Shown one piece after another: positions 22,904 through 34,404 of a stretch of 64,000 nucleotides of DNA. The position numbers and the translations under genes are program-made. The stretch is from Paracoccus everestensis (GTDB lineage Bacteria; Pseudomonadota; Alphaproteobacteria; Rhodobacterales; Rhodobacteraceae), in contig NZ_CP090836.1 in assembly GCF_021491915.1 (NCBI RefSeq), positions 1 to 64,000 of the forward strand, written 5' to 3'. The notes beneath the pieces are model-generated. The model made no database searches, was not told the DNA's origin, and was given only the letters and a program-made list of their open reading frames with translations. The first letter of the stretch is position 1, and every line of letters begins with the position of its first letter.

Positions 22904-23593
22904 ATGACCAGCCCGACCCGCCACCATCCTTCGGAACGCGCCATCGCGATCCGCTATCAGCAGCGGTCAGCCGAGGTGAAGGCCTTGCAACGGCAATGCT
23001 ATGCCCTGGCCACGCTGCGGCTGCGCGCGGCGGTCGAGGCGAACGGCACCGGCAAGGGGCTGGCCGTGGTCAGCGACATCGACGAGACGATCCTGGACAA
23101 CACCGCCGTCATGGCGCACGCGATGACCCTGGGCGAGGCCCTGGACGGGTTCGAGACCTGGAAGCTGTGGGAACGCGAAGGGGCGCCGCATCTGCTGCCG
23201 GGGGCTGCGGATTTCTTTCATCTGGCGGACCGCTTGGGTGTCACGATCTTCTACGTCTCGGACCGGTTCGAGGAAAACAAGCTGGCGACCATCGCCACCC
23301 TTTCCCGCCTCGGCCTGCCCCAGGTTCATGCGGACCAGGTGCTGCTGTTCGGCCCGCCCAAATCCGAACGCCGCGCGGCCGTTGAACGGGACCACCGCAT
23401 CATCCTGCAACTGGGCGACACGCTGCACGATTTCCACGGCTGCTTTGCCGGGGCGACGTTGGATATCCAGCACCAACTGGCCGAAGATCACGCAGACCGC
23501 TTCGGCGAGGATTGGATCGTCTTTCCCAACGCCGCCCATGGCACCTGGATGGAAGCCGAACTGCGTCCCTGGGAGGCGCCCAAGCCCCGCTAG
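22904..23593 (+). CDS. HAD acid phosphatase / 5'-nucleotidase of the e(P4) type, apparently not exported
   Basis: A 229-residue HAD phosphatase. The catalytic DxD is VVSDIDETILDNT near residue 55, followed by WKLWEREGAPHLLPGAADFF and motif II-like IFYVSDRF. The C-terminal acidic motif is QLGDTLHDF. Relatives such as H. influenzae e(P4) are outer-membrane lipoproteins that dephosphorylate nucleotides. This one begins MTSPTRHHPSERAIA with neither a signal peptide nor a lipobox, so it may act in the cytoplasm. The frame also allows a TTG start at 22889, but the ATG at 22904 has an AGGA motif eight bases upstream. Confidence 0.8.
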   Translation: MTSPTRHHPSERAIAIRYQQRSAEVKALQRQCYALATLRLRAAVEANGTGKGLAVVSDIDETILDNTAVMAHAMTLGEALDGFETWKLWEREGAPHLLPGAADFFHLADRLGVTIFYVSDRFEENKLATIATLSRLGLPQVHADQVLLFGPPKSERRAAVERDHRIILQLGDTLHDFHGCFAGATLDIQHQLAEDHADRFGEDWIVFPNAAHGTWMEAELRPWEAPKPR

Positions 23594-24183
23594 TCGCCCA
23601 GGTGGCTGGCAATTGCCCGGCCAAGGGCAAAGGCCCGTTGTTCCAGAATCACCGGCGTTTCGCAGACATAGGTCAGCGATTGCTGGCGTTCGGTAAAGAT
23701 GCGCTGATCCCAGTCAAGCGCCTCCTCGGCCGCATCGATGGCATCGAAATCGGGATCGGTTGCGGTCTCCAGGTCGGCCATGGCGGCGCGGCGTTCCTCG
23801 ATCCGGCGGGCCATGTCCACCTGGCTGCGGCCATATCGGGCGATGCCGTCGATCAGCGCCGTCCGATCCGGTTCGATCTTGCCGAACACCGCCACCATCA
23901 GCGCAGTCAGTTCCGCATCGTCGGCCTGCGCCGCGAAATCCGCGATCTCGGCCTCGGCGTCTTCCAGCGGCAGGCGACGTTGTTCCAGCCGGGCGGCAAG
24001 GGCCTCGATCCGGGGATCGCGGGCCAGTTCGGCAATGCGGTCGTCGGGCGCAGGCCCGGTCCAGACCTGACCCAGCGACAGGTGCGGCTGCTTGCGCTGG
24101 ATGCAGGGCCAGTCGGGATCAATTCCGGCAGCCGGCCATGCAGGCCCGGCGGCGATGATCAGCGCCACGATGATGCGTTTCAT
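23590..24183 (-). CDS. Secreted protein of the PQQ-linked ABC operon, function unknown
   Basis: A 197-residue protein with a signal peptide (KRIIVALIIAAGPAWPAAG). The mature start DPDWPCIQRKQPHLSLGQVW is followed by a long helical, charged region (about residues 50-185) with coiled-coil character. Two Cys residues, one near the mature N-terminus and one near CETPVI at the C-terminus, could pair in the periplasm. The start is set at 24183, where the ATG overlaps the ABC permease stop as ATGA. It is the last gene of the operon. Its job is unknown; its place suggests a helper of the ABC system or of the PQQ dehydrogenase. Confidence 0.75.
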   Translation of the reverse strand: MKRIIVALIIAAGPAWPAAGIDPDWPCIQRKQPHLSLGQVWTGPAPDDRIAELARDPRIEALAARLEQRRLPLEDAEAEIADFAAQADDAELTALMVAVFGKIEPDRTALIDGIARYGRSQVDMARRIEERRAAMADLETATDPDFDAIDAAEEALDWDQRIFTERQQSLTYVCETPVILEQRAFALGRAIASHLGD

Positions 24184-25001
24184 CCTCTTTCCTTCCGTCT
24201 GGCCCACAGGCCCTTGGCGGGATCATACATGAACACGGCCCCGCCGAAAAAGACCGCAAGGCAGCCCGCCACAACGCCGAAGGCCTGCCAGTTCATCTCA
24301 AGGTAAAGCGCGAAGCGGATCAGTTCCACCGCATAGGTAAAGGGATTGGCCGCGCAGATGTCGTGCAAAAGGGGCGAGCTTTCGTTCATCCGCCACAGCG
24401 GATAAAGCGCCGAGGACGCAAAGAACATCGGGAAGATCACGAAGTTCATCACGCCCGCGAAATTCTCCAACTGTCGGATGGCCGATGACAGGAACAACCC
24501 CAGCGCCCCCAGCATCAGCCCCGACAGGACCAGCGCGGGAAAGACCGCGACATAGCCCCAGGCGGGCGGCCGGATGTCCCAGAACCAGGCGATCGCCAGA
24601 AACGTATAGGCCTGGATGATCGACACGATCACCCCTGCCATCAGCTTGGATCCCAGCAGGAACCAGCGGGGAAAGGGGCTGACCAGCAGCGTGCGCATTG
24701 CGCCCGTTTCGCGGTCATAGACCATCGACAGCGACGACTGCATCCCGTTGAACAACTGGATCATCGCGACAAGGCCGGGGGTCACATAGACCTCGTAAAG
24801 GACATAGGTCTGATAGGGCGGCGTGATCGACAGGCCCAGCACGGCCCTGAAGCCTGCCGCAAAGATGAACAGCCAGACCAGCGGGCGCACCAGGGCGGCC
24901 AGGAACCGCCCGCGCTGCTGGACAAAGCGCAGCGTTTCGCGCCAGGCAATGCCGCGAAAGGCGGTGGCCCAGGCGGCCGCAGGGAAACGACGTTCGCTCA
25001 T
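24180..25001 (-). CDS. ABC-2 type permease, PQQ alcohol dehydrogenase-linked system
   Basis: A 273-residue membrane protein with six hydrophobic segments and ABC-2 features, including the block MVYDRETGAMRTLLVSPFPRW that couples to the ATPase. ABC-2 permeases normally export. It overlaps the ATPase gene by four bases (ATGA) and the downstream secreted-protein gene likewise. The neighbouring substrate-binding protein is unusual for an exporter-type system. A similar set is found in the lanthanide-uptake (lut) clusters of methylotrophs, which is a parallel drawn from memory of gene content. Confidence 0.85.
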   Translation of the reverse strand: MSERRFPAAAWATAFRGIAWRETLRFVQQRGRFLAALVRPLVWLFIFAAGFRAVLGLSITPPYQTYVLYEVYVTPGLVAMIQLFNGMQSSLSMVYDRETGAMRTLLVSPFPRWFLLGSKLMAGVIVSIIQAYTFLAIAWFWDIRPPAWGYVAVFPALVLSGLMLGALGLFLSSAIRQLENFAGVMNFVIFPMFFASSALYPLWRMNESSPLLHDICAANPFTYAVELIRFALYLEMNWQAFGVVAGCLAVFFGGAVFMYDPAKGLWARRKERG

Positions 25002-25759
25002 GCGGCGGCCCCGGTCAGCGACAGAAAGGTCTGGGTCAGCCCCGAAGGCCCGGCAATGGCAGCCGTCTTTCCCTGGCTGAGAACGCGGCCCTTGTGCAGG
25101 ATCACCAAGTCGTCGTCGGGCTGGATTTCATCCATGATATGCGTGGCCCACAGCGCCGACACGCCTTCCGAGGCGATCAGGCGGCGTGTCAGAGCCAGAA
25201 CCTCGGCCCGGGATTTCACGTCCAGCCCCACCGTCGCCTCGTCCAGCAGCAAAAGATCGGGGCTGTGGATCAGGGCGCGGGCGATTTCCGCGCGCCGTTG
25301 CTGGCCCCCCGACAGGGCGGACACCCGGTCATGCGCGCGGCTTTCCAGCCCCACCTGGTCCAGCACCTTGTCGATGCGCGGTCGGGCCTTGGCGCGCGGT
25401 ATTCCGTGCAGCGCGGCGTGATAGGCTAGGTTCTGCGCCACCGACAAATCGGCGTCCAGGGCGCGGCTTTGGAACACCACGCCCAGGCGCGCCATGGCCT
25501 GGGCGGGATGGCGGCGCAAGTCGTATCCCGCCACCTCGATGCTGCCCGAGACATTGCTGTAAAGCCGCGTCACCAGCGAAAACAGCGTGGTCTTGCCCGC
25601 GCCGTTAACGCCCAGAAGGGCGGTAAAGCTGCCACGCGGGACGGCCAGCGACACATCGGCCAGCGCCTGGACCGAACCAAAGCGATGCGACAGGCCGGTG
25701 ATCCGCAGGGCATCGGCGGATGGGGGCAGAGCGCCCGCCTCCTGCGTGGAATCAGTCAA
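24998..25759 (-). CDS. ABC transporter ATP-binding protein, PQQ alcohol dehydrogenase-linked
   Basis: A 253-residue ABC ATPase. Walker A is GVNGAGKTTLFSLV, the signature is LSGGQQRRAEIARAL, Walker B is LLLLDEATVGLD, and the switch His is in WATHIMDEI. It matches the TIGR03864 type found beside PQQ-dependent alcohol dehydrogenases. It overlaps the small periplasmic gene upstream by eight bases and the permease downstream by four, so the operon is tightly coupled. Confidence 0.9.
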   Translation of the reverse strand: MTDSTQEAGALPPSADALRITGLSHRFGSVQALADVSLAVPRGSFTALLGVNGAGKTTLFSLVTRLYSNVSGSIEVAGYDLRRHPAQAMARLGVVFQSRALDADLSVAQNLAYHAALHGIPRAKARPRIDKVLDQVGLESRAHDRVSALSGGQQRRAEIARALIHSPDLLLLDEATVGLDVKSRAEVLALTRRLIASEGVSALWATHIMDEIQPDDDLVILHKGRVLSQGKTAAIAGPSGLTQTFLSLTGAAA

Positions 25760-26012
25760 GGGTCATGCTGGTGATGGTGAAATCGCCAGACAGCTTGATG
25801 TCGTACTGGCCAATCTCGCATTCAGCATCGTCCACCTCGAACAGGTCGGCGCGTTCCTTCTCCACCCCTTCCGGGCCAGGCTGACATCCGATCTTGGCCA
25901 GGGCTTCGGTTATGCTGGCCAGTTCCTGGTCTGATGCCATGTCATTGTCCTGCGCAAGCACAGGGGTGACGGCGCTGGCGATGATCGCGGCGCAAAGGAC
26001 GGATTTCAGCAT
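25752..26012 (-). CDS. Small secreted protein, PepSY-like
   Basis: An 86-residue protein with a signal peptide (MLKSVLCAAIIASAVTPVLA). The mature acidic part contains two Cys residues, which could form a disulfide, and ends in YDIKLSGDFTITSMTLD. The ending resembles a single PepSY-type strand pair, but that is weak. An AAGGGGAAA ribosome-binding site supports the start. It lies between the acidic protein and the ABC ATPase in the PQQ-linked operon. The function is unknown. Confidence 0.7.
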   Translation of the reverse strand: MLKSVLCAAIIASAVTPVLAQDNDMASDQELASITEALAKIGCQPGPEGVEKERADLFEVDDAECEIGQYDIKLSGDFTITSMTLD

Positions 26013-26023
26013 GGCATTTCCCC

Positions 26024-26596
26024 TTACTGGACGTTGAACACGGCCTGCTGGCTTTCGCCCGAAGATCCCGGCACCGACAATGTATAGCGTCCCGGCGTGA
26101 CTGCAATGAAACTGATCACCGCCGTGCCGGCATTGTCGAATTCGATGCTGTGGACACCCATCGGGCGGATTTCGATGTCGTTGATGACGATCTCATTGAT
26201 CCAGATCGACCGGAAGAAATCGCCGCCCGACAAGGCCAGTTCCTGGCTGCCATCGGCATTGATGGCGATGCGATAGAAGCCGCCCGACTTCAGGGTGTAT
26301 TCCCCGCCCGCGACCGGCTGCCCCGACGCCAGCGTCAGCGGCGCCAGGTCGGTGCGGTTGTCGCGCGCCATGATGCCCGAGAAGCCATAGTCGAACTTGC
26401 CCTTGGCGTCATAGGTGGCCGCAGCCTCGCCGCCGGCTTCTTCCTCTTCCTCGTCGTCGTCGTCTTCTTCGGTCGCCGCAGCGGCCTCGGGGGCCGCCTC
26501 AGACGCAGCGGCGCCTTCGGTGGCGGCGGCGTCCTGTGCTGCGGCGGGAACCGACAGGCCGGCCATGATCATCAGAACGGTCAGCAAACGGGTCAT
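26024..26596 (-). CDS. Secreted protein with Asp/Glu tract, XoxF-region operon
   Basis: A 190-residue protein with a signal peptide (RLLTVLMIMAGLSVPAAAQ). An Ala/Glu-rich stretch and an acidic run EEDDDDEEEEEAGGE follow (about residues 38-60). A folded beta-rich domain then spans about 75-190 (GGEYTLKSGGFYRIAINADG, GVHSIEFDNAGTAVISF, GRYTLSVPGSSGE). The last part looks like a cupredoxin- or immunoglobulin-like sandwich without an evident copper site. The acidic tract might bind cations, which is an inference. The start at 26596 has the ribosome-binding site AAGGAAA. The function is unknown. Confidence 0.75.
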   Translation of the reverse strand: MTRLLTVLMIMAGLSVPAAAQDAAATEGAAASEAAPEAAAATEEDDDDEEEEEAGGEAAATYDAKGKFDYGFSGIMARDNRTDLAPLTLASGQPVAGGEYTLKSGGFYRIAINADGSQELALSGGDFFRSIWINEIVINDIEIRPMGVHSIEFDNAGTAVISFIAVTPGRYTLSVPGSSGESQQAVFNVQ

Positions 26597-26631
26597 GGGT
26601 TTTCCTTCTTTGGTGAATAGGGTGGGCCGCA

Positions 26632-27597
26632 TCAATTGGGCGCGACGACGACGCCCCAGGGCTGCTGGCCTACGGGCACGGACTTGACGACTTCCTCGGA
26701 TGCCACGTCGATCACGGACACGTCGTTGGAATTGCCGTTGGTGGTGAACAGGTATTTCTCGTCGGGCGTGAAGGCCATCTGCCAGACCCGCTGGCCGACC
26801 AGCAGGTAATCCTTGACCTCGTCCGTTTCGCCGTCGATCACGGCCACGCGGTTCGACGGCCCGAGCGCCACGAAGACCTTCTTGCCGTCATTCGTCACGC
26901 GCACACCGACGGGCTGGATCGCTTCGGGCAGGACGCCCGGAACCTCGAACGTGATCTTGTTGGTGATCTGCTGGGTCGCGGGGTCGATCACGCTGATCGT
27001 GCCGCCGATCTCGGCGCTGACATACAGTTTCGTGCCGTCGTGGTTGTACTCGGCGAAGCGGGGGCGCGAATCGACCAGGACGTTGGCGACGATCTCGAAG
27101 GTGTCGGTATCGATGAAATGCGCCATGTTCGTCGTTTCCGACGTGTTGATGACGATCTTGCCGTCCGGGCTGACGCCCATGCCCTCGGGTTCGACGCCCA
27201 CGGGGATTTCGGCCAGCACCTGCTTGGTCTTCACATCGACCACGGTGACAAGGTTGTCATCCTCGTTCGCGACATACAGCGGGTTGCCGGACGGATGCAG
27301 CACGAACAGTTCGGGATCGGGGCCGGACGGCAGGGTATGCAATTCCTCCATCGTGTTCGGATCGAAGACCCGGACCAGGTTGTCGTCGGAGGCGCAAACG
27401 TAAAGCTCGGTTCCGTCGGGGGAAATGGTGATGCCGCGCGGGCGGTTGCCCACCGGATAGGTGCCGATCACCTCCAGCGTGTCGCTGTCCAGGACCGTGA
27501 CATCGTTGCCTTTTTCATTGGTGACGAAGACGCGGTTGGCAAGCGCCGGTTCCGCCAAAAGGGCAAATGCGGGGGCCAGGGCGAGGATATGCTTCAT
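26632..27597 (-). CDS. YVTN-type beta-propeller protein, PQQ-linked
   Basis: A 321-residue secreted beta-propeller with a signal peptide ending near EPALA. The repeat RVFVTNEKGNDVTVLDSDT recurs about every 42 residues, as in LYVCASDDNLVRVFD, LYVANEDDNLVTVVD and LFTTNGNSNDVSVIDV. This is the TIGR03866 type, PQQ-linked, usually with seven blades. Such proteins probably act as scaffold or electron-transfer partners; their precise role is unproven. The start at 27597 has a GAGAGG ribosome-binding site. It lies nine bases after the substrate-binding protein gene. Confidence 0.88.
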   Translation of the reverse strand: MKHILALAPAFALLAEPALANRVFVTNEKGNDVTVLDSDTLEVIGTYPVGNRPRGITISPDGTELYVCASDDNLVRVFDPNTMEELHTLPSGPDPELFVLHPSGNPLYVANEDDNLVTVVDVKTKQVLAEIPVGVEPEGMGVSPDGKIVINTSETTNMAHFIDTDTFEIVANVLVDSRPRFAEYNHDGTKLYVSAEIGGTISVIDPATQQITNKITFEVPGVLPEAIQPVGVRVTNDGKKVFVALGPSNRVAVIDGETDEVKDYLLVGQRVWQMAFTPDEKYLFTTNGNSNDVSVIDVASEEVVKSVPVGQQPWGVVVAPN

Positions 27598-27605
27598 GGA
27601 ACCTC

Positions 27606-28799
27606 TCAAAAGGAACATTCGGTTTCGGGACGGTCGATGCCCAGCGTATCCAGGGCACTGGTCTGGTGCAGATACTGGTCCTGCGGACTGACCGAGGTGG
27701 TCAGCAGCCCGGTGGTCAGCAGGATCGGCTGGCGGACCTGGTGGTCCCAGTCGCGCACGGTCAGTTTCCGGCCCTTGAAGCCCGCCACGTCGAACCCTTC
27801 CGACAGGATGAATTCGCGCAATTCCACCGGATCGGCGGACTGGGTGCGGGTTGCGGCCTCGCCTACAATGCGCAGGGCCAGCCAGGTCTGGTAATCTTCC
27901 TCTCGGATGGGTCGGTTCGCCAGGCGTTCGAAACGGTTCTGGTACTGCGTCCCGCCCCAGGCCTCCATCGCCGGGTGCCAGCTTCGCGGGACCAGGCCGG
28001 CCGATCCTGCCACGGGACGCGGATCCCAGGTCAGATAGGGCAGGTAAGGGGCAAAGATGTCGCTTTCGTCCGCCGCGATCAGGATGTCGTAATCGGGCGC
28101 ACGCTGCGTGAAGACCGGCATCTGTGCCTGGACCTGAACATGGCCCGAATCGGTGCTGCGGGCGCCGCCGGTATCTTCGTAAACGCGTTCCTCGACGATC
28201 TTGGCGCCGAACTTGGCGGCGGAACGGCGAAAGGCGGCGGCCAGGTTTTCATCCTCGGGGTGGCTGCCCTTGACCAGCAGCCAGTCGGGCCAGTTCTTCC
28301 ACATCAGGAACTGCGCTAGCCCGTCGGCCAGCATGGCGTGGCTGGGCGCGACATGGATGGTGTTCGCGCGGCAATCGGTCCCCCGCAAGGCATCGCCCCG
28401 CGCCCGGGCATTCAGCAGCATGGCGCGGTCACCTGCCTGGTCGGCCAGGGCCAGGGTCGTGGCGTCGTCGGCCAGGACCACGACGAACTGGATCCCCTCG
28501 GCCAGGATCCTGTCCAGTTCCGCGCCCGCCGTTTCGGGCGTAGCGGTGATCTCGAGCGCCTCGAAATCCTGGTTCATGAAGCGCCCAGTTGTGTCGTTGT
28601 CCTCGATCGCCAGGCGCGCGCCCGCGAATCCCAGATCCTCGACCGGCAGATCCAGCCGGGAAATGGGGGGCAATCTTTCCTCGTCCACGCGCAGCACGGC
28701 CGCGCGGATCTGCTGCATCTCGGGCTGAGGCTGCTGGGCTATGGCAGGCCCGGCCAGCACAGCGGCACCAGCCAAAAGTCCTATGATTCCCTTGAACAT
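27606..28799 (-). CDS. ABC substrate-binding protein, PQQ alcohol dehydrogenase-linked
   Basis: A 397-residue periplasmic binding protein of the TIGR03863 type (Leu/Ile/Val-like fold), with signal peptide IIGLLAGAAVLAGPAIAQ. Two alpha/beta lobes are visible (LGFAGARLAIEDNDTTGRF in the first, DWLLVKGSHPEDENLAAAF in the second). It is the first gene of the seven-gene ABC operon. What it binds is unknown. The pairing of a binding protein with an ABC-2 permease is the hallmark of this PQQ-linked family and may relate to metal or cofactor handling for XoxF. Confidence 0.88.
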   Translation of the reverse strand: MFKGIIGLLAGAAVLAGPAIAQQPQPEMQQIRAAVLRVDEERLPPISRLDLPVEDLGFAGARLAIEDNDTTGRFMNQDFEALEITATPETAGAELDRILAEGIQFVVVLADDATTLALADQAGDRAMLLNARARGDALRGTDCRANTIHVAPSHAMLADGLAQFLMWKNWPDWLLVKGSHPEDENLAAAFRRSAAKFGAKIVEERVYEDTGGARSTDSGHVQVQAQMPVFTQRAPDYDILIAADESDIFAPYLPYLTWDPRPVAGSAGLVPRSWHPAMEAWGGTQYQNRFERLANRPIREEDYQTWLALRIVGEAATRTQSADPVELREFILSEGFDVAGFKGRKLTVRDWDHQVRQPILLTTGLLTTSVSPQDQYLHQTSALDTLGIDRPETECSF

Positions 28800-28959: not shown

Positions 28960-29517
28960 ATGATGCAGAAGATCCTGGGCCTTGCCGTCGCCGCGACGCT
29001 GGCCCTGCCCCTTGGCGCCCAAGCCCATGGGCCCGCCCGCCTGAAGACCGAACAGTCGGTTGTCCTGGACGCCACCCCGGACGAGGTCTGGCAGGTGATC
29101 GGCAAGTTCGACGACATGGGCTGGCATCCCGCGGTGGCCCGTACCGAAATGACGCCCGAAGGCGCGCCTGCCGATGTCCCCGAGGAATCGACGCGCGTCC
29201 TGCACCTGAAGGCGGAAAGCGGCGATCCGACCATCACCGAGCAGTTGATGTCCATCGACCCGGACAAGCGCCAATACAAATACATGATCACCGACGTCGC
29301 GGTCGAGGTTCTGCCGGTCACGAACTACTCGTCCACGATACAGGTCAAGGACAAGGACGGCCATGCCGAGGTGGTCTGGAAGGCCGGGTTCTATCGCGGC
29401 TTTCCCAACAACGATCCCCCGGCCAACCTGAATGACGACGCCGCCATGGCGGCGGTCAACGGAATCTATCAGGCGGGCATCGACGCCCTGGTCGAACGAT
29501 TCGGCAAGGCCGAGTGA
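28960..29517 (+). CDS. MxaD-like SRPBCC family periplasmic protein
   Basis: A 185-residue protein with a signal peptide (LGLAVAATLALPLGAQA) and an SRPBCC/polyketide-cyclase-like fold (VVLDATPDEVWQVIGKFDDMGWHPAV). This is the domain type of MxaD, which improves electron transfer between methanol dehydrogenase and its cytochrome in methylotrophs. Its position beside xoxF fits such a role for XoxF. Its stop overlaps the GTG start of the following propeller gene (GTGA). The start may be 28960 or the next ATG at 28963. Confidence 0.83.
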   Translation: MMQKILGLAVAATLALPLGAQAHGPARLKTEQSVVLDATPDEVWQVIGKFDDMGWHPAVARTEMTPEGAPADVPEESTRVLHLKAESGDPTITEQLMSIDPDKRQYKYMITDVAVEVLPVTNYSSTIQVKDKDGHAEVVWKAGFYRGFPNNDPPANLNDDAAMAAVNGIYQAGIDALVERFGKAE

Positions 29518-30443
29518 GGCTTGCCGCACTGGCATTGATGCTGGCATCCCCCGCAGTCGCGGGGGATTTGGCTTTCGTGACAAGCCAGAACGCGGACATG
29601 GTCACGCTTGTCGATCTGGCGTCGGGCAAGGTGCTGGCCCAGACGCCGGTTGCGGGCAAGCCCGCGCCCGTGGCCTATGATCCGGCAGCGGGCCGCGCCT
29701 ATGTGATCGCGGCGGATACCGGGCAGCTTTACATCCTGGACGAGGCAGGGGGCGTCACGGCCAGCCACGCCTTGGGCGAAGGCGCATTCGGACTGGCTGC
29801 GGCGCCGGGGGGCGGTCTGTTCGTGACAGACTGGTTCGGGGCGCGGCTTGTGCATCTGGACCGCAGCCTGCAGGTGGTCTGGGACGTGCCCACGGGCGCT
29901 GCCCCTGCCGGGGTGGCGGTCAGCACTGACGGGCAATGGGTGGCAACGGCGGATCGCGACAACGACGGGGTCAGCATCTTTGACGCCAAGACGGGCGCGC
30001 TGCTGCACAAGGTCAAGACGGCGGGCGCGCATCCCTTCGGGATCACCTTCCACGACGGGCGGTTCTGGACAGCGGATGTTCAGGGCGACAGCGTTTCCGT
30101 GATCGACCCCTGGACAGGGACGCTGGCGGGCCATGTCCCGACCGGCAGCCACCCTTATGCCGTGGCTTTCGCGGGGGGCCGGGGGTTCGTCACCAACCAG
30201 TATGCAGGCACGCTGACGGTGTTCGACCCCGGCAGCCTGGCCGTATTGGCCGAGGTCCCAGTCGGCGATTACCCGGAAGGCATCGGCACCCTGCCCGGCG
30301 GCGATGCGGTTGCGGTCGCAAACTGGGAATCGGACACGCTTGTCGTCATGGACGCGGCCAGCCTGACCATCACGGCAGAGATCGAGATGCCCTCTGGTCC
30401 CCGCGCCTTTGGCCAGTTCACGGGCCGGCAGGCACAGCCTTGA
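29514..30443 (+). CDS. Secreted beta-propeller protein, YncE-like
   Basis: A 309-residue beta-propeller with a short signal peptide (MRLAALALMLASPAVAG). Blade repeats run about every 40 residues (DLAFVTSQNADMVTLVDLASG, VSIFDAKTGALLHKVKT, VSVIDPWTGTLAGHV, LTVFDPGSLAVLAEV). The start is GTG, coupled to the mxaD-like gene. It is a second, different propeller from the one at 26632-27597. The 3' end overlaps the convergent rhodanese-like gene by 26 bases. The role is unknown; a partner in the XoxF periplasmic system is likely. Confidence 0.82.
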   Translation: MRLAALALMLASPAVAGDLAFVTSQNADMVTLVDLASGKVLAQTPVAGKPAPVAYDPAAGRAYVIAADTGQLYILDEAGGVTASHALGEGAFGLAAAPGGGLFVTDWFGARLVHLDRSLQVVWDVPTGAAPAGVAVSTDGQWVATADRDNDGVSIFDAKTGALLHKVKTAGAHPFGITFHDGRFWTADVQGDSVSVIDPWTGTLAGHVPTGSHPYAVAFAGGRGFVTNQYAGTLTVFDPGSLAVLAEVPVGDYPEGIGTLPGGDAVAVANWESDTLVVMDAASLTITAEIEMPSGPRAFGQFTGRQAQP

Positions 30444-30948
30444 CCAGGGGCGCGCCGCCCGCCGCCAGCCAGCCTTCGATCCCGCCGGGAAACCAGTGGA
30501 CGCCGCTGTAGCCCAGGGCAACCGCACGGCGGGCGGCATTCCAGCTCATCCAGCAATCGCTGCGGCAGAAGATCACCATGGGCGCCGCCCGGTCGCCCTT
30601 CGACACCTGCTCCAGGCCCCGTTCCAACCGCGCCTGTTCGGCAGGGGCCAGGTTTTCCCAGCCGGTATCCCACAGCCAGACCGCACCGGGGATGGTTTCA
30701 TGGGGCGGTTCGCGCCAGATCGTACCCTCGGGCAGGCCCTGGGGCCGTGTCTTGCGGGGCAGCACGTCCAGGAACGGGACGTTTTCGCCATGCAGCCGGA
30801 TGGTATCGCCCGCATCGACAACCGTGGCACCGCGCAGCGTCGCGGGCACCGGCGCGCGATAAGGCTCGCCCCGATAGGCGTCAGGTTCAGGCACCTGGGC
30901 CGTTGCCGGTCCTGCCAGCAGCAGCGCCAGCAAGACCGCGCGGATCAC
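30418..30948 (-). CDS. PQQ-linked rhodanese-like protein with C-x3-C-W motif
   Basis: A 176-residue secreted protein with signal peptide IRAVLLALLLAGPATAQ. The C-terminal half has a rhodanese-like fold (VIFCRSDCWMSWNAARRAVALGY). The cysteine motif reads C-R-S-D-C-W. It belongs to the type named for a CXXCW motif and found beside PQQ alcohol dehydrogenases (TIGR03865). A sulfur-transfer or redox role in maturing XoxF or its cytochrome is possible but unproven. The start overlaps the xoxJ stop as ATGA, so it is the last gene of xoxF-cycB-xoxJ-orf. Confidence 0.85.
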   Translation of the reverse strand: MIRAVLLALLLAGPATAQVPEPDAYRGEPYRAPVPATLRGATVVDAGDTIRLHGENVPFLDVLPRKTRPQGLPEGTIWREPPHETIPGAVWLWDTGWENLAPAEQARLERGLEQVSKGDRAAPMVIFCRSDCWMSWNAARRAVALGYSGVHWFPGGIEGWLAAGGAPLVKAVPAGP

Positions 30949-31757
30949 TGGACCAGCTCCTTGCCGTAGTCATCGACCAGGGGCACGCCTGCGTCACGCA
31001 GGATGGCGTTGATGTCGTCCTGGTGGCGGCGGATCAGGCTGTTCAGTTCCCGCTTCCATTCCTGTTCAGACAGCCGCACCCCCATGGTGATGCGATAGAA
31101 CATCTTCGGCCCCGCTGTTTCCTTCAACAGCGGCGTGAACTGCAGATCGGGATCGTCCTTGACCCGAGGGCCGGACAGCGGTCCCCACAAGACGGCCGCG
31201 TCCAGCGTGCCGTCCTTGACGCCCCCGATCAGGTCGCCAACAGGATCCTTGACGCGGCGGTCCACGAACAGGTCGGCCCCGCGCATATCCTTGGCCAGCC
31301 CCGCCCGCGCCATGATCGTTGCAGGCGGCGATCCCGCGATCACCCCGATCGGATGGCCCTTCAAGGCCGGATCGGAAAGGTGATCGACCCCGGCCAGGTC
31401 GCCGTCCTTTCGCGTCACGATCCCGAACACCGAGGTATAGTAATGGTTGGTGTTCTGCACCAGCTCATCACCCTGGGCATAGCCCATCACCACGTCGCAA
31501 TCCCCTGTCCGCAGCGTCCTGGCGATGAAACCCATGCCCGAGGGGAACCAGGAATAGGTGACAGGCACGCCCAGCCATTCCCCGAATGCCTCTGCCAGCT
31601 TGTTTTCAAAGCCCGATCCGTCGCGCATCGACATGGGGGCGTTGGCCGGATCCGCGCAGACCCGAAACTGCGTGGTGGACCGCAGGTCCGCCACCTGGGC
31701 CGTGGCGGGCAGCCCGCCCAGAACGACCGCCGCCATCAGCCAGCGAAGGATGCCCAT
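30945..31757 (-). CDS. xoxJ: XoxJ, periplasmic binding protein of the XoxF system
   Basis: A 270-residue protein of the MoxJ/XoxJ branch of the family-3 binding-protein fold. It has a signal peptide (ILRWLMAAVVLGGLPATAQ) followed by FRVCADPANAPMSMRDGSGFENKLAEAF. MoxJ/XoxJ proteins are needed for active methanol dehydrogenase and may help load or activate the enzyme. The start is set at 31757. The frame continues 72 residues upstream, but only through the 3' end of the cytochrome gene, whose stop lies one base away. The gene overlaps the rhodanese-like gene downstream. Confidence 0.9.
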   Translation of the reverse strand: MGILRWLMAAVVLGGLPATAQVADLRSTTQFRVCADPANAPMSMRDGSGFENKLAEAFGEWLGVPVTYSWFPSGMGFIARTLRTGDCDVVMGYAQGDELVQNTNHYYTSVFGIVTRKDGDLAGVDHLSDPALKGHPIGVIAGSPPATIMARAGLAKDMRGADLFVDRRVKDPVGDLIGGVKDGTLDAAVLWGPLSGPRVKDDPDLQFTPLLKETAGPKMFYRITMGVRLSEQEWKRELNSLIRRHQDDINAILRDAGVPLVDDYGKELVQ

Positions 31758-31758
31758 C

Positions 31759-32409
31759 TTACATCGACATGCAGGAATCTTCCTGCGCCGTGTATTCGTC
31801 GGACTTGTCGGCGCGTTCCGCAGGACGGCCGCGCGGAATCTCTCCGGTCCCGTGGGCCAGCAGATAGACATAAATGTCATCGACATAGCACCAGACGTTC
31901 TTGTTCGTCCCGAACGCAGGCATGACCGAGTTCGTGCCCTGGCGTCCCGACGCCACGACTTCCTGGAATTCATAGTAGTCCATGCGCAGGACTGAATTCT
32001 TCAAGGCCGGGGCATAGGTGGACCCTTCGCCGTCAGGACCGTGGCAGACATGGCATTCCGCATGATAGCGGCGGAACCCGTTGAAGGTCGCGAAATCGAC
32101 GACGTTGTTGTCGATCTTGAAGGTCGGAATGCCCTCGGCATTGTACCAGCGGCCGTTTTCCTCGGTGACAGGGGTGATGTCCATGCCATTGGGAAGGGTG
32201 GTTGCCCCCTCGGCCATCTCGACGGGCGCATCGTCCCCCCCGGCGGGTGCTGCGGGTTCGGCTGCTGCCGCGGCGCCGGATGTGGCGGCTGCCGCGCCTG
32301 CGCCGGCCTCGGCGGGCGGGGGGGTCTGGGTTGTCGCTTCCTGCGCGAAGGCAGTTGTTGCCACGGTCGCGGCAAGCGCCAGGGACGCAAGGCTGGTGAT
32401 GGCTTTCAT
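31759..32409 (-). CDS. cycB: c-type cytochrome of the XoxF system (c553i type)
   Basis: A 216-residue periplasmic cytochrome. After the signal peptide (about 22 residues) comes an Ala/Pro/Glu-rich linker (about residues 28-60), then the heme motif CHVCH (C119, C122, H123). The likely distal Met is M163. Two more Cys (C174, C213) make it a four-cysteine methanol-type cytochrome. It probably accepts electrons from XoxF and is also called XoxG. The start MKAITSLASL at 32409 has a GGGAGGAA ribosome-binding site. A hairpin stands in the gap to xoxF. Confidence 0.92.
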   Translation of the reverse strand: MKAITSLASLALAATVATTAFAQEATTQTPPPAEAGAGAAAATSGAAAAAEPAAPAGGDDAPVEMAEGATTLPNGMDITPVTEENGRWYNAEGIPTFKIDNNVVDFATFNGFRRYHAECHVCHGPDGEGSTYAPALKNSVLRMDYYEFQEVVASGRQGTNSVMPAFGTNKNVWCYVDDIYVYLLAHGTGEIPRGRPAERADKSDEYTAQEDSCMSM

Positions 32410-32458
32410 TGTCTCATTCCTCCCGAAATTCAATTTACCCGGTCCTCCTCAGGTAAAA

Positions 32459-32526: not shown

Positions 32527-34404
32527 TTAGCCGCTGGTGCCGCCTTCGGCAGGCGCCGGTTCCGCCGCAGGGTCGGCGGCCGGCTCGGCCGAGGCCGAGG
32601 CCTCGCCCGGCAGTTCGAACACGGTCAGCTGGCCGCCCAGTTCGGTGTAATCCGACAGGGCCGCATAGCCGCCCACGGCGCCCAGGCCTTCGTTCGGGTT
32701 GGTCAGGCCCGCTGCCAGACCGATCCCGGCCCAGCCGCCGACGCCCGACAGGATGCCGATGTACTGCTTGCCTTCGCGTTCATAGGTCATCACGTTGCCG
32801 ATGATCCCGGACGGGGTCTTGAACTTGTACAGTTCTTCGCCCGTGTCGGCATCCACCGCCTTCAGATAGCCTTCCAGCGTGCCATAGAAGACCACGTCGC
32901 CCGCGGTGGCCAAGGCCCCCGACCAGACCGAGAACTGTTCGGGCAGCGACCACTTGATCTTGCCCTCGATATTGTCCCAGGCGATGAAGTTACCCATGCC
33001 GCCGTGGCTGTCGGGTGCCGGATACATCGACAGGGTCGCGCCGACATAGGGCTGGCCCGCCGTATAGGCGACGCGGAACGGTTCATAGTCCATGCAGACG
33101 TGGTTGGTCGGCACATAGAAGGTCTGGGTCTTGGGCGAATAGGCAGCGGGCTGCTGGTCCTTCGATCCAAGGGCCGCCGGGCAGACGCCGGTGGTGTTCT
33201 CATCCTCGCCATTCTGGGCGGTCGAGTATTCGGCGACGACCTGCGGGCGGCCATACTGGTCGCTGTTGGGATCCATCTCGACATGGGTCGCCCAGTTCAC
33301 CGCCGGATCGAACTTTTCTGCGACCAGCAGTTCGCCCGATTCGCGGTCCAGCGTATAGCCAAAGCCGTTGCGGTCGAAGTGGGTCAGCAGTTTGCGCGGC
33401 TGGCCGTCGATTTCCTGGTCGGTCAGGATGTTTTCGTTGACCCCATCATAGTCCCATTCATCGTGGGGGGTCATCTGGTAGAACCACTTGGCCATGCCGG
33501 TATCGGCATCGCGGGCCATGATGGTCATCGACCACTTGTTGTCGCCCGGCCTTTGCGACGGGTTCCAGGTCGAGGGGTTGCCGGTGCCGTAGTAGATCAG
33601 GTTCAGATCGGGGTCATAGGAGAACCAGCCCCAGATCGAGCCGCCGCCGATCTTCCACTGATCGCCTTCCCAGCTGTTCAGGCTGCTGTCGGCCCCGACC
33701 GGCTTGCCCAGATGGGTGGTCTTTTCGGGATCGACCAGCATTTCGTCGTCGGGACCGGTCGAATAGGCTTTCCATGCCTCGGTCCCATCGGCCAGGTTCA
33801 GCGCGGTCAACCGGCCACGGATGCCGTATTCACCGCCCGAAACGCCGACCATCACCTTGTCCTTGACCGGCATGACGGTCGCGGTCAGGGTTTCGCCGAT
33901 CGCCGGATCGCCGATCTTGGTGGACCATTTCACTTCGCCCGTCTTGGCATCCAGTGCCACCACGGTGGTGTCGGCTTGCGACAGAATGACCATCCCGTCG
34001 GCATAGGCCAAGCCGCGGTTGACCGTGTCGCAGCACATGACGGCAATGACTTCGGGGTTTTGCTGCGGTTCGTAACGCCACAGGATCTTGCCGTCGTTGG
34101 CCAGATCCAGGGCGAAGACGTTGTTCGGGAACGGCGTGTGGACATACATGATGTCGCCGATCACCAGGGGGCTGCCCTCATGCCCGCGCAGCACGCCGGT
34201 CGAGAAGGTCCAGGCCACCCGCAGATCGCCCACGTTGTCGCGGTTGATCTGGTCCAGTTCCGAATAGCGCGTGTTGGCATAGTCGCCGGTCTGGATCGCC
34301 CATTGTTCGGGCTTGGCTGTCTCGGTCAGGACGCTTTCGTTGGCAAAGCTCGCCGCGCCCGTCAGAAGCAGCACGGCAACCGTGCTGTTCAGCAATCTTT
34401 TCAT
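32527..34404 (-). CDS. xoxF: XoxF, PQQ-dependent lanthanide-type methanol dehydrogenase
   Basis: A 625-residue quinoprotein with signal peptide [17 protein letters not shown]. The vicinal disulfide Cys124-Cys125 (AVMCCDTVN) sits over PQQ. Metal ligands Glu192, Asn276 and Asp318 align with Glu177, Asn261 and Asp303 of MxaF by a constant offset. Asp320 in [11 protein letters not shown] is the extra acidic residue that distinguishes lanthanide-dependent XoxF from calcium MxaF. The C-terminus carries an Ala/Pro/Glu-rich tail (about 25 residues). It heads xoxF-cycB-xoxJ-rhodanese and is preceded by a promoter-like region with a large inverted repeat. Confidence 0.95.

Follow-up and report, generated by a model that had tools for sequence, protein, structure and literature searches.

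Why a periplasmic binding protein of an import type should be encoded together with an ATP-binding cassette (ABC) permease of an export type, beside the methanol dehydrogenase gene xoxF, is the question raised by an operon of Paracoccus everestensis. The operon comprises seven reading frames on the minus strand (positions 23590-28799), in the order lutA-lutB-lutC-lutD-lutE-lutF-lutG, and lies within positions 1-64000 of contig NZ_CP090836.1, the 64,000 nucleotides analysed here and referred to below as the window. The seven genes are the Paracoccus version of the known lut/ped lanthanide-utilisation ABC module.

Composition and kinship of the lut operon

The initial annotation had described a seven-gene operon linked to pyrroloquinoline quinone (PQQ), and all seven frames were recovered in the order and at the positions it gave. 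The curated cut-offs of the four PQQ-linked NCBIfam families by which lut/ped kinship was judged were all exceeded. These are represented by LutA, a periplasmic substrate-binding protein of the Peripla_BP_6 family (27606-28799; TIGR03863, 460.5 bits, cut-off 413.6; PF13458), LutB, a YVTN beta-propeller with a likely ATG start at 27597 (26632-27618; TIGR03866, 530.2 bits, cut-off 287.3), the ABC ATPase LutE (24998-25759; TIGR03864, 333.6 bits, cut-off 302.25) and LutF, an ABC-2 (type V) permease by family and structural model (24180-25001; TIGR03861, 400.2 bits, cut-off 241.35; PF01061). The lutC position encodes a secreted acidic protein, cupredoxin-like to judge from what some of its homologues are called, with a likely ATG start at 26596 (26024-26635), the lutD position a small periplasmic PepSY-like protein (25752-26012), and the lutG position a secreted helix-rich protein with a likely ATG start at 24183 (23590-24207). 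In the second half of the operon, lutD and lutE overlap by 8 bases (25752-25759, with a TTG start) and lutE and lutF by 4 bases (24998-25001), while the overlap of lutF and lutG is 4 bases with the ATG at 24183 and 28 bases with a GTG at 24207; the overlaps of 4-8 bases read at the outset are thus reproduced if the former start is used.

The likeness to lut genes put forward at the outset is borne out by the four families and by the gene order, which agrees with the published lutABCDEFG of Methylorubrum extorquens. In the available part of the description of strain AM1 (lutA-H, lanM, lutI; PMC7391723), the succession of a substrate-binding protein, an exported protein, two small proteins, an ATPase, a permease and a further exported protein is common to both organisms. 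The AM1 cluster also includes lutH, encoding a TonB receptor, and lanM, whereas the Paracoccus operon has neither alongside, so that the lutH and lanmodulin genes of the strict M. extorquens cluster definition are both missing from the window. The accessible text on Pseudomonas putida KT2440 (PMC6839425) describes PedA1A2BC, which shares the substrate-binding protein, YVTN propeller, ATPase and permease, and reports no LutH homologue either; relative to PedA1A2BC, the window adds lutC, lutD and lutG, and the neighbour is xoxF rather than pedH. Homologues of lutABEFG have been reported in Sinorhizobium meliloti, with no LutH homologue reported for strain 2011 (PMC12628762), and lutABEFCG in TMED127 marine bacteria in the part of that study available (PMC12542740). 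The xoxF locus on pSymB of S. meliloti strain ABS7 (locus L218) carries an annotated PQQ dehydrogenase, XoxJ-type and CXXCW proteins, lutA, lutB, a hypothetical gene at the lutC position, lutE and lutF.

Association with lanthanide-type PQQ dehydrogenases

The distribution of the module was determined in a class survey of 192 genomes, 186 of which reached 90 % completeness or more with contamination of no more than 5 %. LutA was called at E <= 1e-40 and XoxF-like enzymes at 63 % identity or more. An aspartate at the column of the second Asp of the XoxF motif WDYDG marks lanthanide-type PQQ dehydrogenases. This residue was read in 66 PQQ-dehydrogenase frames of at least 350 amino acids, taken from fetched loci and the window; where the Asp stands outside a WDYDG or WDFDG context, the lanthanide-type assignment is putative.

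LutA was found in 22/192 genomes and LutF exceeded its cut-off in 25/192. An Asp-type enzyme occurs in 20 of the 22 LutA genomes as against 4 of the 170 without LutA (table 20/2/4/166; Fisher p 3.4e-21). Nineteen genomes had only Thr-type enzymes among those examined, second enzymes of, for example, G191, G142, G107, G063, G022 and G120 lying outside the residue test; none of the nineteen encodes LutA or a PqqT-type protein (described below), and three encode LutF. Among the matches listed, a XoxF-like enzyme is present in eight of the 192 genomes, that of P. everestensis included, and all eight have LutA and seven LutF. The exception, G007, has its LutA within about 1 kb of a contig end, and the absence of LutF may reflect an incomplete assembly. 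Twelve of the 22 LutA genomes carry another Asp-type enzyme with no XoxF-like match among those listed. P. everestensis itself possesses XoxF; the next-best XoxF match in this genome scores below all those listed. Because of the 20/22 against 4/170 distribution and the lack of LutA in all nineteen Thr-only genomes, the lut module tracks lanthanide-type (Asp) enzymes, not PQQ enzymes generally and not XoxF alone. The initial annotation had named, as the outcome that would speak against its proposal, an operon equally common in genomes without XoxF or other PQQ dehydrogenases; this is not the pattern observed. Its tie to PQQ dehydrogenases therefore stands, while specificity for XoxF does not, with a XoxF-like enzyme among the matches listed in only 8/22 LutA genomes.

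A contig pattern scan yielded more than 594 lut loci, of which the best 80 (L114-L193) are mostly from Rhodobacterales, some repeating survey loci (L114 = G023; L164 and L224 share one permease). Asp was present in 37 of the 42 PQQ-dehydrogenase frames of at least 450 amino acids in these 80 loci, with Val in one and the pattern unmatched in four. In L229 and L230, which come from a different class of the same phylum, a PQQ dehydrogenase gene, lutA, lutB, lutF and a PqqT-type set adjoin one another, flanked by regulator-like genes.

A PqqT-type importer accompanies LutA

A second ABC set is located within the lut operon in loci of Ciceribacter, Rhizobium, Roseibium and Poseidonocella. Pfam identified its binding protein as NMT1-type (L119, L134) and, in L121, its permease as BPD_transp_1 and its ATPase as that of an ABC transporter. 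The profile of this binding protein, for which sequences from the class survey and from further fetched loci were used, matches the solved M. extorquens PqqT structures 9b1u and 9b1v, and also 9ooz (E 1.6e-100 and 7.8e-100); the P. everestensis copy alone matches PqqT as well (E 1.8e-66). Because of these matches, the companion is, as judged by sequence, a PqqT-type set. PqqT binds PQQ with a Kd of 50 nM, according to the available portion of PMC12124388.

With a single-member query, the binding protein was found in 20/192 class genomes, 19 of which have LutA, so that it is present in 19/22 LutA genomes. The remaining genome (G024) has an Asp-type enzyme. In this genome, which has no LutF over the cut-off, a LutE-like ATPase gene lies directly 3' of the PqqT-type set (L206). 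In a phylum survey of 249 genomes, the profile gave 29 matches, 28 of them strong (247-445 bits); all 28 strong matches come from genomes with LutA, the 207 genomes without it giving no strong match, and the weak match in G344 (75 bits) being set aside as a paralogue. Fourteen of the 42 LutA genomes of this survey yielded no PqqT-type protein. The two surveys share genomes, including the strong phylum matches G000 and G058, and both covered the binding protein only, the permease and ATPase being seen by eye in most, not all, of the loci viewed. In 16 of the 28 genomes with a strong phylum match, no more than 20 kb separates the gene of the PqqT-type protein from lutA; among the 80 named loci this gene occurs in 38, in 13 of them between lutA and lutF. 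In P. everestensis the binding protein, permease and ATPase genes are located outside the window, directly after ribBA and ribH (G000:C1:948657-951049; L198:8658-11050) and 0.92 Mb from the lut genes, whereas on pSymB of S. meliloti the set lies inside the xoxF/lut run.

Several explanations of this companion were rejected. Flavin transport, suggested by the ribBA and ribH neighbours, does not agree with a locus of the same genus (L223) in which no rib genes were seen alongside by eye, nor with the match of the binding protein to PqqT. A role restricted to PQQ auxotrophs is at odds with the presence of pqqE in 16 of the 20 PqqT-type class genomes. Nor does the protein go with PQQ synthesis: it occurs in 15/18 of the pqqE genomes that have LutA and in 1/15 of those that do not, 33 in all (Fisher p 1.3e-5). 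The PqqT-type set as a close companion of LutA is new in this analysis. No published link between NMT1/NitT-type transporters and lanthanide use was found, most subscription journals being outside the scope of the search, and the accessible parts of the PqqT literature found make no mention of lut, the primary PqqT papers likewise lying outside that scope. The co-occurrence may point to a joint handling of metal and cofactor.

Fold of LutF and the pqq operons

The LutF model (predicted local distance difference test score 90.2) matched KpsM, NosY, ABCA and ABCG chains, and the 50 structural matches listed are KpsM, Wzm, TarG, NosY, ABCA, ABCG, ABCH, Pdr-type and PmtCD chains. By its modelled fold, LutF is a type V (ABC-2) permease; a search of its sequence profile against solved structures gave weak matches to 8tsh and 9qfx. 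LutA and LutF were found in the same 42 of the 249 phylum genomes. The combination of an import-type binding protein with an ABC-2 permease had been flagged as mechanistically odd, and since LutF has a type V fold and shares all 42 genomes with LutA, the oddity is real.

An exporter-type fold would suit a reading in which PQQ, by itself or complexed with lanthanide, leaves the cytoplasm through LutEF and is returned by the PqqT-type importer, and the presence of the PqqT-type protein in nearly all LutA class genomes points the same way. LutF occurs without LutA in four class genomes (G105, G106, G108, G191), in all of which it adjoins pqqE and other pqq genes, and this hints at a PQQ-related substrate for LutF in these four. 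Loci L050, L051, L052 and L057, from genomes without LutA, show a LutF-family permease gene that either adjoins a pqq biosynthesis operon or stands first in it. At least two of pqqB, pqqC and pqqE were present in 27 of the 114 loci examined, one of which (L223) has no LutF. A tree computed from 122 permeases, with long branches, unsettled bootstrap values and the window's own LutF left out, places the permeases of the four pqq-operon genomes at three weakly supported positions within the LutF clade. P. everestensis has pqqE (G000:C1:2945229-2946290), about 11-12 kb from the end of the single contig; on a circular chromosome, the gene would be about 35 kb away from the lut genes.

Outward movement of PQQ is nevertheless considered quite improbable. 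LutF was not found in 11 of the 15 pqqE genomes without LutA, and in the phylum survey each of the 42 genomes with LutF also had LutA. In the available text of PMC6839425, P. putida without pedA1A2BC remains able to grow by means of PedE, the calcium enzyme, and the M. extorquens authors propose another transporter, META1p2359, for PQQ export in the part of their paper at hand (PMC7391723). General PQQ export as the sole role of LutEF was rejected on the growth of the P. putida deletion strain and on the 11/15 genomes.

There is a further, distinctly unlikely reading in which lanthanide and PQQ are dealt with jointly: LutEF would export PQQ or lanthanide-PQQ, LutA and LutB would receive it and PqqT would recover it, with PQQ serving as the inner-membrane lanthanide carrier. 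If true, this would explain the import-type binding protein beside the export-type permease, the tracking of lut rather than PQQ synthesis by PqqT, and the occurrence of LutF in pqq operons without LutA.

The LutC, LutD and LutG proteins

Three of the seven proteins had been described as having no known function, and this could be narrowed for LutC, through cupredoxin-like names, and for LutD, through a PepSY-like family, but not for LutG. LutC of the window has a run of 11 Asp/Glu residues, and at least four consecutive acidic residues occur in 19/61 homologue frames, the window's included. A few of its 898 homologues are named cupredoxin or copper-binding, and Pfam and NCBIfam scans gave no match over the cut-off. 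LutD has two Cys residues and a conserved acidic core, with nine invariant columns across 20 aligned sequences, and its model consists of one helix and four strands. PepSY_2 leaves the window LutD unmatched, while a relative in locus L140 exceeds the PepSY_2 cut-off, and on a Paracoccus alcaliphilus plasmid with the same lut order the lutD position is annotated as a PepSY domain protein. For LutG, 1520 homologues were retrieved, with detection in 9 of the 106 sources searched (the window included), and the Pfam and NCBIfam scans returned no family. For all three proteins, most of the homologues that bear a name are named Paracoccus. Searches of solved structures with single sequences gave no match for LutA, LutF or LutG, and those for LutC and LutD were judged to be chance. 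In P. alcaliphilus, genes for a histidine kinase and a response regulator lie 3' of lutG (L219:13983-16189).

Proposed mechanism

With the parts, their order, their co-occurrence and the LutF fold observed, we infer the substrate and direction of LutEF and any roles of LutC, LutD and LutG. Probably, LutA, LutB and LutEF supply lanthanide to XoxF, LutC and LutD buffer it and the PqqT-type importer retrieves PQQ in parallel. In the periplasm, LutA and LutB would capture lanthanide, whether free or chelated, and acidic LutC and PepSY-like LutD may act as buffers there; LutEF, as an ATP-driven type V transporter, would work with LutA to provide lanthanide for XoxF, and the PqqT-type importer, encoded elsewhere in the genome, would recover the cofactor. 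Mutants described for relatives speak for transport inward, to the cytoplasm: in M. extorquens, lanthanum is found in the periplasm of lutE and lutF mutants and in the cytoplasm of the wild type, as given in the available part of PMC7391723.

The same localisation argues against a periplasmic loading machine like NosDFY, in which LutEF would move no metal and ATP would drive LutA and LutB to insert lanthanide into the periplasmic apo-dehydrogenase. Furthermore, the type V permeases listed score alike against LutF, and the matches of LutA and LutB (TIGR03863 and TIGR03866) do not include the NosD family, leaving no NosD-type partner. Such loading is therefore unlikely.

Supply of lanthanide through LutEF remains the preferred reading, and a number of points weigh against it. 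The type V chains matched by LutF are mostly what we take to be exporters, and none of those listed is known to be an importer from bacteria that works with a binding protein of type I. Asp-type enzymes occur without LutA in G003, G024, G056 and G120, and LutA occurs with no Asp-type enzyme found in G111 and with a fragment only in G160. LutD is PepSY-like and is no core part of the module, because its family was found in only one of the 22 class genomes with LutA (P. everestensis), and also in G152 and G173, two genomes without LutA (45-47 bits), and weakly in G131. LutC, LutD and LutG are likened to the AM1 proteins by gene order alone. Finally, pedA1A2BC of P. putida is not needed for lanthanide repression of PedE-based growth, according to the accessible text of PMC6839425.

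Genomic surroundings and TonB receptors

As first annotated, the operon lies beside xoxF, which encodes an Asp-type PQQ methanol dehydrogenase with the WDYDG motif (32527-34404, minus strand). Between lut and xoxJ are plus-strand genes for a MxaD-like SRPBCC protein (28960-29517; PF10604) and a second YVTN propeller (29514-30443; TIGR02276 repeats). Minus-strand genes for a PQQ-associated CXXCW protein (30418-30948; TIGR03865, 199 bits, cut-off 128.05), a XoxJ-like binding protein (30945-31973; PF00497), a XoxG-like cytochrome c (31759-32433; PF13442) and XoxF follow. The MxaD profile was matched in 14 of the 80 named loci, 12 of which also have the PqqT-type protein.

A genome-wide PF00593 search located three TonB receptors, all outside the window, and EF-hand_5 was unmatched across the whole genome, in accordance with the absences initially noted. 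The lack of a receptor is nonetheless no peculiarity of this operon, given that P. putida and S. meliloti 2011 have no reported LutH. By eye, the neighbours of the three receptors are FecCD/FepB-like genes (L215), cobalamin-type ABC genes (L216) and, in one case, no transport genes (L217/L002). A phmmer search found no TonB receptors near lut loci, which is not evidence of absence, as two Pfam-confirmed receptors escaped it; one lies directly 3' of a PqqT-type set (L043:13890-15980) and the other about 4 kb from lutA (L227:3-1595), and both are possible PQQ or lanthanide receptors. The best 80 loci of the pattern scan include no Methylobacterium or Methylorubrum.

Significance

Two results make the route by which lanthanide reaches periplasmic dehydrogenases, and the job of the lut ABC step, more testable. 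The module tracks the lanthanide-type Asp residue and not XoxF or the use of PQQ in itself, and LutA has a close PqqT-type companion. Because both transporters share one run with xoxF in S. meliloti, their roles would be separable there by single deletions.

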